DNA of 64,000 nt from Arthrobacter sp. NEB 688. Its GTDB lineage: Bacteria; Actinomycetota; Actinomycetes; Actinomycetales; Dermatophilaceae. The stretch spans positions 1,302,001-1,366,000 of the forward strand of contig NZ_CP053707.1 in assembly GCF_013201035.1 (NCBI RefSeq). The letters run 5' to 3'. A model generated the notes under the pieces. That model was not told the origin of the DNA. It made no database searches and was given only the letters and a program-made list of their open reading frames with translations. The translations under genes were made by a program, and so were the position numbers. Shown here in pieces: positions 59,549-63,304 of the stretch. Numbering within the stretch: the first letter of the stretch is position 1; every line of letters begins with the position of its first letter.

Positions 59549-60415
59549 GTGCCTGCTGCCCCGCCGTCCGGCCCCTCGCCCGTCGTCGAGGCCGTCGCCC
59601 GGCTGGCCGAGCTCCCGGGGCTGCCCGAGCAGGTCGAGGCCGCCCGCGAGGCGTGCACCCGGCTGCGCTGGCACAACGCGCTGCGCCGGCGCACCGCCGA
59701 GGCCGCGGCCGAGTCGCGGGTGCGCGGCGCCGTCGCCAGCGCCGGGCTCGAGGGCGCGACCATCCCCCTCGACGCCGTCCGCGACATCGTCCGGGGGGCG
59801 GCCACCTGGTCGCCGGAGCCCGACCCCGTCGAGCGCGTGGCCCGGGGCGCCGTGGCCGCCACCGCCGAGACCGAGCACGTCGAGCCGCTCGTCCTGCGCG
59901 CCCCCGCCCAGGCGCTCGCCCGGCTGCACACCGTCGCCGCCGCCGGCCTCGTCCCCGACGACGCGCTCGGCCGCCCGCGGCTGCCCGACGAGGACTGCGG
60001 CGAGCTGACCGACCTCGGCCCGGCCCCGGCCGCCGCCGAGGTCGCGGTGCGGCTGCGCGCGCTCGGCGAGGTCCTGCTCGCCCTGCCGCGGCTGCCGGTC
60101 GTCGTCGCCGCGGCCGTCGTCCACGCCGAGATCGCCACCGTGCGGCCCTTCGTCCGCGGCAACGCCGTCGTCGCCCGGGCCCTGGACCGCGCGGTCGTCC
60201 ACGCCGGCGGGCTCGACCCGACCGGCGTCGCCGTCACCGAGGCCGGGCACGCCGCCGGGGGAGGGGCGGCCTACCTCGGGGCGCTCGCGGCGTACGGCCG
60301 GGGCGACGCGGTCGGCGTCGGGCTGTGGGTCTCGCACTGCTGCACGGCCGTGCGCGCCGCGGCCGACGAGGGCGCCCTCGTCGCCGACGCCGTGCTCGCC
60401 GGCCGCCTCGGCTGA
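59549..60415 (+). CDS. Degenerate Fic-domain protein
   Basis: A 288-residue helical protein. Residues 192-210 (HAEIATVRPFVRGNAVVAR) align with the Fic active-site motif HPFxxGNGRxxR, but the catalytic His is Arg199, and the second Gly and the Arg of GNGR are replaced by Ala206 and Val207. AMP transfer is therefore unlikely. Residues 64-69 (SAGLEG) match the SxxxEG inhibitory motif of class II Fic proteins. In other actinobacteria this gene is often labelled oxidoreductase, probably wrongly. GTG 59549 is six bases after TAGGCT (59537-59542). It lies next to the tad locus. Confidence 0.75.
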   Translation: MPAAPPSGPSPVVEAVARLAELPGLPEQVEAAREACTRLRWHNALRRRTAEAAAESRVRGAVASAGLEGATIPLDAVRDIVRGAATWSPEPDPVERVARGAVAATAETEHVEPLVLRAPAQALARLHTVAAAGLVPDDALGRPRLPDEDCGELTDLGPAPAAAEVAVRLRALGEVLLALPRLPVVVAAAVVHAEIATVRPFVRGNAVVARALDRAVVHAGGLDPTGVAVTEAGHAAGGGAAYLGALAAYGRGDAVGVGLWVSHCCTAVRAAADEGALVADAVLAGRLG

Positions 60416-60462
60416 GGCCGCGGCCACCCGTTCCCGTCGGGCTCCACGTCGGCCGCGAGTCC

Positions 60463-60491
60463 TTGTGGGCGGCGGTGTGCAGGAGTACAAC
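60463..60491 (+). promoter_or_regulatory. Promoter of candidate structured RNA
   Basis: TTGTGG (60463-60468), 17-bp spacer, TACAAC (60486-60491). Transcription would start around 60496-60498, at the base of the first hairpin. No start codon with a good reading frame follows. Confidence 0.5.
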
Positions 60492-60495
60492 TGGG

Positions 60496-60680
60496 GGTGA
60501 GGGCAGCAGCCCTCACCGAAGACCTACCGCGGACGACGGGTACCCACGCGCGGGCAGTCCACTGATGGACCGGTTGCCGCGGGCTCGTCCCACGGCCACG
60601 GCACGACAGCACGCCTGGTCGCCCGGAGACCGCGGCAGGACGACGCCCTCGTCCGCCCGACGAGGGCGTCGTCGTGCCCG
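60496..60680 (+). ncRNA. Candidate structured RNA, Ms1-like by position
   Basis: About 185 nt with several helices. A 5' hairpin GGTGAGGGC/GCCCTCACC (60496-60504, 60509-60517) opens it. A long-range stem CCTACCGCGG (60523-60532) with CCGCGGCAGG (60630-60639) has one internal mismatch. An inner GTCCA-CTGA-TGGAC hairpin and a terminator at 60640-60672 complete it. It has its own promoter. In mycobacteria the abundant RNA MTS2823/Ms1, which binds core RNA polymerase, lies by my recollection between Rv3661 and Rv3662c, close to the ssd-tad genes, and a homologue is reported at the same place in Streptomyces. Identity as Ms1 is inferred from position and structure only. Confidence 0.55.
60640..60672 (+). 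terminator. Terminator of candidate RNA
   Basis: A perfect 14-bp stem (60640-60653 and 60659-60672) with a 5-nt loop. Confidence 0.75.
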
Positions 60681-60730
60681 GACCGCCACCCGCCCCGGGG
60701 CCGGTGGACGTGTCGGGGTGACCCTGAGAT

Positions 60731-60840
60731 GTCCACGAGACCCCGGTTCCGAGCGGGGGCCTCGTGGACGAACCGGGGTCTCGGGCCCTCCGTGAACGCG
60801 TGCTCAGCGCGTGACCGTAGGCGTTCACGGAAAACCGGGG
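60731..60840. repeat. Interleaved inverted repeats
   Basis: Segment A GTCCACGAG (60731-60739) pairs with 60761-60769, and segment B (60737-60749, 13 bp) pairs with 60770-60782. The order A-B-A'-B' means the two stems exclude each other or form a pseudoknot. A separate 10-bp stem CCGTGAACGC (60790-60799) pairs with 60831-60840. No gene lies here. Confidence 0.7.
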
Positions 60841-60960
60841 ACAAACTGTCGGCATGCGTGGAAGAATCTGGAGGAAACCTACGGATCCCGCATATCTGAG
60901 GACATTCTCAGGTAGTTTTCAGGGGTACGTCTGCCGGGCTTGCGCCCGGGGGCATCCATG
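60841..60960 (+). promoter_or_regulatory. Low-GC leader upstream of the repeat array
   Basis: This 120-bp stretch is clearly less GC-rich than its surroundings and probably contains a promoter. It includes a CTGAG-N6-CTCAG hairpin (60896-60911) and a TAGTTT hexamer (60913-60918). A 35-codon ORF (60854-60961) is present, but its codon use does not fit this genome. Confidence 0.4.
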
Positions 60961-61061
60961 AGTCACGATGTACTCACTCGCTCCCCTTCGGGGTTGAGCG
61001 ACCGGCGAACCGGCTTCTCCCCCCCGGAGCTCGGCTCGCCGACGGCCCCGGTTGTCCCCCC

Positions 61062-61278
61062 GACCGGGGCCGTCCCATGTCCGGATGCTTTTCGCTCATC
61101 CACGCCCCGGGTCGCGGGGACCCCGCCCCCGACCGGGGCCGTCCCATGTCCGGATGTCTTTCGCCCAGCCACGCCCCGGGTCGCGGGGACCCCGCCCCCG
61201 ACCGGGGCCGTCCCATGTCCGGATGTCTTTCGCCCAGCCACGCCCCGGGTCGCGGGGGCCCCGCCCCCGACCGGGGCC
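61062..61278. repeat. 69-bp tandem repeat, three copies plus partial
   Basis: Units start at 61062, 61131 and 61200, with a 10-bp partial unit at 61269. Units 2 and 3 are almost identical; unit 1 differs at a few positions. Each contains CCCATGTCCGGATG and a GC-rich inverted repeat (GGTCG...CGACC with CGGGG/CCCCG inside). The period is a multiple of three, so all frames stay open, but no reading frame has a credible start. It lies 93 bp upstream of ssd. Confidence 0.9.
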
Positions 61279-61280
61279 GG

Positions 61281-61370: not shown

Positions 61371-62099
61371 ATGGACACACCCGCACCCCTCCTCCTCGTC
61401 GTCGGCGCGTCCGGCGGCCTGGGCGCCAGCAGCCTCGCCCTCGCCGTCGGACGCCGCCTCGCCGGTGCCCGCGGCGCCGCGACGGTGGTCGACCTCGACA
61501 CCTCCCGCGGCGGCCTCGACGTGACCGCCGGTGTCGAGCACCTGCCCGGCCACCGCTGGCCGGCGCTCGGCGGGCTGCGGGGGGCGGCGCCGGCCCGGCC
61601 GCTCCTCGACGCCCTCCCCGCCGAGGCGCGAGCACGGGTGCTCGCCGCGGCGGGCGCCGCGACCCGCGACCTCGCGCCGGAGGCCGTCGCCGACACCCTT
61701 TCCAGCCTGCTCGGTGCCGGTGAGCCCGTCGTCGTCGACGTCCCCGCCGCCTCCCCCCACCTGGCGACCCTCCTGCCCCGCGCCGCGCTGGTCGTCGTCG
61801 TCACCGGGCTGCAGACGCGCCGGCTCGCCGATGCCGACGCCGTGGTCGGCCACCTCGCGCAGGTCGCCGACGACTGCGTCGACCCGCCCGCCCTGCGCCT
61901 CGTCACCCGGGGCACCCGACCGGCACCGGCGGTCCTCGACGACCTGCGCCATCACCTCGGCGTCCCCCACCTCCACCACGTCCCCGACGACCCGCAGGTC
62001 GAGCGCGAGGCCGAGCGCGGCCTCTGGCCGGGCAGCACCCGCGGCCCGCTGCGCCGGTGCGCCGACGCCGTCGTCTCCGTCCTCGGCGAGGCGTCGTGA
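61371..62099 (+). CDS. ssd: Septum site-determining protein Ssd / CpaE-TadZ-like
   Basis: A 242-residue MinD/ParA-fold protein. The P-loop region GASGGLGASSLALAVG (residues 13-28) keeps the glycines but lacks the signature Lys (KGGxGKT), so ATP hydrolysis is doubtful. VVDLDTSRGGLDVTAGVEH is the switch I equivalent. M. tuberculosis Ssd (Rv3660c) stands at the same place, directly upstream of tadA; in Tad systems this protein (TadZ/CpaE) places the pilus machine at the pole. The ATG lacks a strong ribosome binding site. The next gene overlaps its stop codon by 4 bp. Confidence 0.85.
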   Translation: MDTPAPLLLVVGASGGLGASSLALAVGRRLAGARGAATVVDLDTSRGGLDVTAGVEHLPGHRWPALGGLRGAAPARPLLDALPAEARARVLAAAGAATRDLAPEAVADTLSSLLGAGEPVVVDVPAASPHLATLLPRAALVVVVTGLQTRRLADADAVVGHLAQVADDCVDPPALRLVTRGTRPAPAVLDDLRHHLGVPHLHHVPDDPQVEREAERGLWPGSTRGPLRRCADAVVSVLGEAS

Positions 62100-63304
62100 G
62101 GTCCACGGCCCGGCGGGATGCCCCGTCCGTCCCGGGGCCCACCGGCCCGGTCGAGCGGTCCATCGCCGCGGGGGAGGGGCCCAGCCCGGCGCGCATCGCC
62201 GCCGTCGCGCGGGCGTCGCTGCCGCTGCTCGGTCGCGAGGGCGGCGTGCGCGCGGGCCGCGAGCTCGAGGCCGGGCTCGTGGGTCTCGGGCCGCTCGCCC
62301 CGCTCGTGGAGGACCGGACGGTGACCGATGTCCTCGTCAACGGCGACGGGTCGGTGTGGGTCGACCGGGGTGGTGGCGTGCGGCCCTCGGGGGTGGCCCT
62401 GCCCGGGGTCGCGGTGCGCGCGCTGGCGGTCCGCCTGGCCGGCCTCGCCGGCCGGCGCCTCGACGACGCCCAGCCCTGGGTCGACGGGCTCCTCCCGGGC
62501 GGGGTGCGGCTGCACGCGGTCCTGCCGCCGCTCGTCGAGGAGGGCGCGCACGTCAGCCTGCGGATCCCCCGGCGGCGGCTCGCCGGGGTGGCGTCGCTCG
62601 TCGAGCACGGGATGGCGGACGAGGGCACCGCGGCGGTGCTCGCCGGCCTCGTGGCCGCGCGCCGCAGCCTGCTCGTCACCGGTGGCACCGGCGCCGGCAA
62701 GACGACCGTGCTCGGGGCCCTGCTCGCGCAGTGCCCACCCGCCGAGCGGCTCGTCGTCGTCGAGGACGTCCGCGAGCTCGACCCGCTCCACCCTCACGTC
62801 GTGCGCCTGCAGGGACGGGCGCCCAACGTCGAGGGCGCCGGCGAGGTGTCGCTCTCCGTCCTCGTGCGGCAGGCACTGCGGATGCGCCCCGACCGCCTCG
62901 TCGTCGGGGAGGTGCGGGGTGGGGAGGTTCGCGACCTCCTCGCCGCGCTCAACACGGGTCACGAGGGCGGGGCGGGGACGCTGCACGCCAACGGGCCGCA
63001 GGAGGTCCCGGCCCGGCTCGAGGCCCTCGCCTCGCTCGTCGGGATGCCCCGCGCCGCGGTCCACGCCCAGCTGCGCGGGGCGCTGCACGCGGTCGTCCAC
63101 GTCGTGCGCGACGACGCGGGCCGCCGGATCGGCGGGGTCGGCGTCCTGTGCCCCCGGGCTGACGGCCTCGTCGAGGTCGAGGTCGCCCTGCGCTGCGACG
63201 CCACCGGTGCGGTCGCGACCCCTGCCTGGCCGCGGCTCCTGGCCCTCCTGCCGCCGGGGACGGCGCCGCCGGTGGGCTTCGCGTCGTCGTCGGGAGCGGC
63301 GTGA
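62096..63304 (+). CDS. tadA: Tad pilus assembly ATPase TadA/CpaF
   Basis: A 402-residue secretion ATPase that powers Flp/Tad pilus assembly. Residues 60-130 form the N-terminal domain (VTDVLVNGDGSVWVD). Walker A is GGTGAGKTT (196-204), followed by VVVEDVRELDP (Asp box), Walker B region DRLVVGEVRGGE and the His box NTGHEGGAGTLHAN. The GTG start overlaps the ssd stop. It lacks the long N-terminal extension of some CpaF proteins. Part of an operon with ssd and tadB. Confidence 0.94.
   Translation: MRSTARRDAPSVPGPTGPVERSIAAGEGPSPARIAAVARASLPLLGREGGVRAGRELEAGLVGLGPLAPLVEDRTVTDVLVNGDGSVWVDRGGGVRPSGVALPGVAVRALAVRLAGLAGRRLDDAQPWVDGLLPGGVRLHAVLPPLVEEGAHVSLRIPRRRLAGVASLVEHGMADEGTAAVLAGLVAARRSLLVTGGTGAGKTTVLGALLAQCPPAERLVVVEDVRELDPLHPHVVRLQGRAPNVEGAGEVSLSVLVRQALRMRPDRLVVGEVRGGEVRDLLAALNTGHEGGAGTLHANGPQEVPARLEALASLVGMPRAAVHAQLRGALHAVVHVVRDDAGRRIGGVGVLCPRADGLVEVEVALRCDATGAVATPAWPRLLALLPPGTAPPVGFASSSGAA

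Follow-up and report, generated by a model that had tools for sequence, protein, structure and literature searches.

Ms1 is an actinobacterial RNA that holds RNA polymerase in resting cells, and it seems to replace 6S RNA in many actinobacteria. The question raised here is whether the segment at 60463-60680 of our window encodes such an RNA. The window is the whole stretch of 64,000 nucleotides that was analysed; it occupies positions 1302001-1366000 of a genome that consists of one contig of 4,077,299 bases. A preliminary description had proposed an Ms1-type RNA at this place. Comparison with relatives confirms 60497-60680 as a small-RNA gene at the level of sequence. We consider it very probable that this is the Ms1 gene of Phycicoccus, the genus of the window, a reading that includes the polymerase holding proposed by homology.

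The putative promoter consists of a -35 box, TTGTGG (60463-60468, plus strand), recognised from the sequence and the spacing of TTG across homologues, and a -10 box, TACAAC (60486-60491, plus strand), placed by homologue comparison and preceded by GGAG as in most homologues. The spacer has 17 nt. This is the promoter-like pair of the preliminary description, and its place holds. Of 22 homologues, 15 have TTG 17 nt ahead of the -10 box, while any other spacing from 12 to 23 is found in at most 1 of 22-23. Consensus scans detected neither the promoter nor the terminator of the RNA gene, so comparison was used instead. A primary-sigma-type promoter belonging to the RNA gene itself is present as a conserved sequence pattern. 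Repeats were also seen at this position in other genomes. Within the window's family, the -35 box of some genera (L012, L018 and L023) is overlapped by an inverted repeat similar to GACAAGTCTTGTC, a possible repressor site. Several genomes of the group f22 (L098-L118), which we take to be Mycobacteriaceae, have a palindrome such as TGTGACCGCGGTCACG in the Ms1 promoter spacer, unseen in the window's promoter. It presumably resembles a CRP-type site.

The RNA itself (60497-60680, plus strand) has a predicted length of about 185 nt, with the 5' end estimated from the -10 box and the 3' end from the terminator. All its parts are given on the plus strand. The 5' hairpin already described, GGUGAGGGC/GCCCUCACC (60496-60517; arms 60496-60504 and 60509-60517), is present in the sequence as an inverted repeat and in the fold. 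The outer long-range helix (helix 1) pairs CCUACCGCGG (60523-60532) with CCGCGGCAGG (60630-60639). Both arms were assigned by covariation, and they enclose 97 nt, as first proposed. Within them lies a near-invariant core. Its 5' half, GGGUACCCACGCG (60538-60550), contains the ACCCAC that is invariant in 25 aligned sequences, and its motif is also present in loci hit by the Rfam Ms1 model, RF02566 (those with alignments printed). The 3' half, GCACGCCUGGUCGCCCG (60609-60625), was identified from our alignments and those of the RF02566 loci. An apical hairpin, GUCCA-CUGA-UGGAC (60557-60570), is seen in the alignment. A second one (helix 5), with approximate limits 60575-60597, has two-sided changes at 8 of 8 pairs and 83.3% of its cells paired. 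Finally, the terminator stem that had been noticed corresponds to a hairpin without a U-tract (helix 6; 60634-60678). Its arms, 60634-60653 and 60659-60678, are 95% complementary, with no T-run after them, and 7 of 8 counted pairs show two-sided changes.

Conservation was followed with a 191-nt query, which matched 32 of the 58 genomes of relatives; some of these matches are terminator-like and lie at other places. Thirty loci were kept. We aligned 25 as homologues (the window's and 24 others) and excluded five short terminator-like matches. The most conserved parts of this alignment are ACCCAC, the CAGTCCACTGATGGAC hairpin and CACGC. In a structure of 37 pairs, 92.9% of the cells are paired, against a shuffled mean of 83.9%. 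Two-sided changes occur at 21 of the 37 pairs compared with 11.5 after shuffling, and 0 of 500 shuffles reached this number, in a control that ignores the relatedness of the sequences. Compensatory changes across relatives, in the long-range helix, were a check named in the preliminary description. The covariation score of the structure is 0.287, versus 0.105 or less for slid versions. The arms of the outer helix gave -27.2 kcal/mol when taken from the same species and -21.7 kcal/mol when mismatched between species. Among non-redundant sequences, 26 of 31 beat their own mismatched mean, and 0 of 5000 permutations were as good.

The single sequence folds more stably than expected by chance at 60490-60680, with z = -4.85 and 0 of 200 shuffles equally stable. 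However, the antisense strand is nearly as significant (z = -4.10), and the minimum-energy fold from 60498 does not contain the full long-range helix. For these reasons, we rejected the single-sequence fold as proof of the helix or of the strand, and both rest on comparison. The compared structure has the Ms1 architecture, in which a long hairpin containing an internal loop is accompanied by a short hairpin close to either end; the single-sequence fold from 60498 differs from it.

A covariance search with an Ms1 model, another check named beforehand, gave a divided answer. RF02566 has no match up to E=5 in 60000-61100, none in the window, and none at E<=0.01 in the window's whole genome. The locus is not above the RF02566 cut-off, which is an operational label and not a biological definition. 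According to PMC9130861, the Rfam Ms1 candidates come only from close relatives of mycobacteria. On the other hand, two models built from our sequences land on RF02566 loci. The model R1 contains 25 sequences, the window's and 24 from relatives of its order, with zero from f22. The model R2 contains 66, without f22 and without the Streptomyces-like group f37. One of its training genomes, G077, is itself weakly matched by RF02566, and there RF02566 and R1 match the same place. In the window, R1 matches 60486-60678 with 132.6 bits, a score for a sequence included in its training.

We searched 296 genomes drawn from the class. R1 has matches in 82 of them and RF02566 in 27, 17 of which are above the cut-off. 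The group f22 holds 24 of these 27 matches, including 17 of the 17 above the cut-off. At the 24 f22 loci, R1 matched the same place and strand in 15 cases at E<=0.01 and missed nine. R2 matched 21 at the same threshold, and its best match in the other three also lies at the RF02566 place (E 0.012 to 0.11). Since R2 also matches antisense or off target with 13-25 bits, four of its 24 f22 matches, at 15.8-24.8 bits, are inseparable from noise by score. Genome-wide, R2 has matches in 154 of the 296 genomes, with those of the training sequences included. It found 17 of the 24 f22 genomes with RF02566 and missed seven at E<=0.01; the places listed in f22 coincide with RF02566 in 16 of 16 cases. In f37 (g68), R2 matches are present in 24 listed genomes. 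In the single-contig genomes G074 and G225 of this group, the match lies about halfway along the chromosome, a position consistent with Streptomyces. RF02566 matched only one f37 genome, G251, with 29.6 bits against a cut-off of 162. The f22 loci also have a similar promoter, for example TTGATG-N17-TACAAA (L099). Profile homology to the RF02566 loci, the promoter pattern and synteny support the Ms1-type identity first suggested.

The synteny is as follows. Upstream of the RNA and co-directional with it is a Fic/Doc-like gene, a usual Ms1 neighbour (59549-60415, plus strand), assigned by synteny and a Pfam Fic match (E 9.8e-5, 23.6 bits) just below the cut-off of 24. The 6C RNA (RF01066), which belongs to the conserved block, is at 61004-61078 on the plus strand, with 48.5 bits against a gathering threshold of 47. 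A weaker 6C match in the 3' part of our RNA (60592-60677, 26.5 bits) was rejected. Next is an Ssd/CpaE-like gene (61371-62099, plus strand), also a usual Ms1 neighbour, named from position and similarity, with no Pfam match. It is followed by a TadA-like secretion ATPase (62057-63304, plus strand; Pfam T2SSE 5.8e-44), whose true start is probably later. Fic and Ssd flank the RNA, as in Ms1 neighbourhoods, and the HAD gene is missing. The preliminary description had placed the M. tuberculosis RNA near Rv3660c-Rv3662c. This agrees with the order Ssd-6C-HAD-Ms1-Fic at L076, a locus of the f22 genome G322 where RF02566 scores 289 bits and 6C is nearby. In 47 of the 47 loci examined, from the 82 R1-positive genomes, Fic, HAD, Ssd or TadA is near the R1 match, and Fic itself is present in 38. 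As a weak control, 0 of 18 pieces of the remaining window carry any of the four. Two sets of loci surrounding R1 matches, each locus spanning about 6 kb, had 6C above the Rfam cut-off in 5 of 20 and 7 of 15 cases.

Some other features occur between the RNA and Ssd. Two inverted repeats lie between the terminator and 6C in the region 60720-60842, at 60736-60749/60770-60783 (100%) and 60778-60799/60821-60842 (77%). P. jejuensis, in which the RNA gene is 95% identical to that of the window, shows 84% identity over 60705-61003. A 69-base unit is repeated 3.2 times (96% matches) at 61057-61279; it starts inside the 3' part of 6C, runs downstream, and repeats GACCGGGGCCGTCCCATGTCCGGATG.

Orientation separates the family of the window, f1, from the rest. 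We read the RNA as plus in all loci, and two further R1-positive f1 genomes are outside the count. Within f1, all 28 of the 28 loci have Ssd downstream on the plus strand. Fic is upstream on the plus strand in 26 of 28; it is reversed at L093, and L165 has no Fic match. Outside f1 (28 loci), 20 loci have Ssd, and all of these but L069 (19 loci) have it upstream on the minus strand. Fic is present in 22, downstream on the minus strand in all of them. At L069 (G075) the Ms1 block is rearranged, with HAD and Ssd on the Fic side of the RNA. The order and orientation of Fic and Ssd are unchanged, so the RNA gene itself must have turned round. The gene order indicates that Ms1 is inverted in place in f1. 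In the available part of PMC9130861 and in a literature search, we found no mention of a flipped Ms1 orientation. In the window's genome, transcription of the RNA heads away from a dnaA match at 837,062-837,265 (the origin is assumed to be at dnaA). PMC4191392 reports that Ms1 of mycobacteria is located close to the origin, with transcription directed towards the origin in 84% of cases.

Losses are also seen in f1. HAD is present in 15 of 28 loci outside this family and in 0 of 28 inside. In 25 family-group genomes, a search for HAD gave 42% identity or less, or no match, compared with 54-62% in three genomes from elsewhere in the order. The orthologue was therefore probably lost in the window's family group. 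The RNA itself was matched by R1 in 29 of the 36 f1 genomes from the search of relatives, and seven had no match. Among four further f1 genomes (G103, G136, G230, G321), only G103 was matched. With filters off, seven Fic loci from RNA-less genomes gave nothing above 15.3 bits. In G001, of the same genus as the window (L174, 1060-1530), Fic and 6C are kept and the RNA is absent between them. By this comparison, G001 is a natural loss of Ms1 within the genus.

Other explanations of the locus have to be weighed against this evidence. The closest is a conserved small RNA that descends from Ms1 and no longer binds RNA polymerase, such as a base-pairing regulator. The apical part is far shorter than in an f22 locus, the gene is flipped, and it is absent in 7 of 36 family-group genomes, all in keeping with such a descendant. 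Nevertheless, the most conserved columns are the core common to the RF02566-hit loci, as expected if the binding module were kept, and we regard this explanation as improbable. A true 6S RNA is less probable again; such an RNA binds RNA polymerase as the holoenzyme containing the primary sigma factor and acts as template for product RNAs. The long hairpin with an internal loop and the length in the 6S range are alike, and 6S and Ms1 resemble each other in the account of PMC4191392. However, the Rfam 6S models have no match in the window at gathering and none up to E=5 in 60000-61100.

It is very unlikely that the segment is a mere terminator or a processed 3' region of the Fic gene. The RNA does follow Fic on the plus strand, only 47 bases separate the Fic stop from the -35 box, and the terminator stem is strong. 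Against this, the conserved promoter pattern separates Fic from the RNA, and outside f1 the RNA opposes Fic in each of the 22 loci where Fic was matched. We can practically dismiss a small protein-coding gene. Long mechanical ORFs cross the region, and the most open frame, on the minus strand, is open in 23 of 25 homologues, which is weak evidence either way in GC-rich DNA. No frame is open through the core in 25 of 25, the helices carry compensatory changes, and frames shift because the spacing of the core motifs includes each length between 77 and 82 nt, both ends counted. The locus has no convincing ORF, as first described.

The Ms1 reading, preferred here, was compared with known systems. 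M. smegmatis Ms1 (RF02566; the M. tuberculosis homologue is MTS2823) was likened to our RNA through the f22 loci. They share the core motif, promoter spacing, -10 box, terminator hairpin and the neighbours Fic, 6C and Ssd. In contrast, our RNA has a predicted length of about 185 nt instead of about 300, with a shorter apical region; the gene is flipped, HAD is absent, and the Rfam model has no match. With scr3559, the Ms1 of S. coelicolor (PMC9130861, PMC11077062, both seen in part), it has the Ms1 synteny in common. However, scr3559 is about 230 nt and has a HAD gene upstream. At the one f37 locus considered (L074), the orientation relative to Fic is opposite to ours.

The preliminary description had supposed that this RNA would extend Ms1 to another order. 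This claim is not new, since Table 4 of PMC9130861 already lists Micrococcales with Phycicoccus included. That source gives Ms1 candidates in 824 species, among them Phycicoccus, Knoellia and Janibacter within Intrasporangiaceae. Judged by this genus listing, these candidates are very probably the same element. It also names Fic and CpaE as flanking words for candidates. Distant groups were connected there through gene order, BLAST was applied only inside groups, and the RNAs of S. coelicolor and M. smegmatis had no detectable similarity. Among the matches listed in our literature search, we recognised no covariance model of Ms1 across actinobacteria. Possibly new are the core motif that joins the short and long forms, the inversion in place in f1, and the loss in a congener that keeps Fic and 6C.

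The proposed biology is as follows. A housekeeping-type promoter of its own would produce an RNA of about 185 nt. The fold of this RNA would comprise three hairpins: one at the 5' end, a long one whose internal loop is built around the core (GGNACCCACGCG ... CACGCYUGGURRCC), and the terminator. Homology suggests that the RNA would bind the sigma-free core of RNA polymerase, accumulate in stationary phase, and help to keep RNA polymerase for regrowth. In f1, the flipped gene points at Ssd and runs with Fic. In both M. smegmatis (PMC4191392) and S. coelicolor (PMC9130861), the binding partner of Ms1 is core RNA polymerase free of the primary sigma factor. In stationary phase, scr3559 was enriched about 1250-fold with polymerase and about 45-fold with the sigma factor HrdB (PMC11077062). 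Ms1 without its internal loop bound much more weakly (PMC4191392).

Compared with the R2 model, an f22 RNA (L113) has long apical insertions, 66 versus 15 and 35 versus 4 positions. So, the apical region is probably dispensable for the shared function. The balance tips slightly towards a more specific reading. In it, Ms1 was inverted with its promoter and terminator between unchanged neighbours, the RNA is a natural minimal Ms1 without most of the mycobacterial apical part, and the core ACCCACGCG/CACGCYUGGURRCC is the module that binds the polymerase core.

The chain of covariance models that starts from the window's locus joins distant families, f1 with f22, by sequence and structure, and the short core is a candidate for the polymerase-binding part. 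If the inversion is true, it would change how Ms1 is oriented with respect to replication and how far it is exposed to read-through from Fic. As natural experiments, the flipped gene and the congener that lacks Ms1 bear on the question of which features of the arrangement are important.
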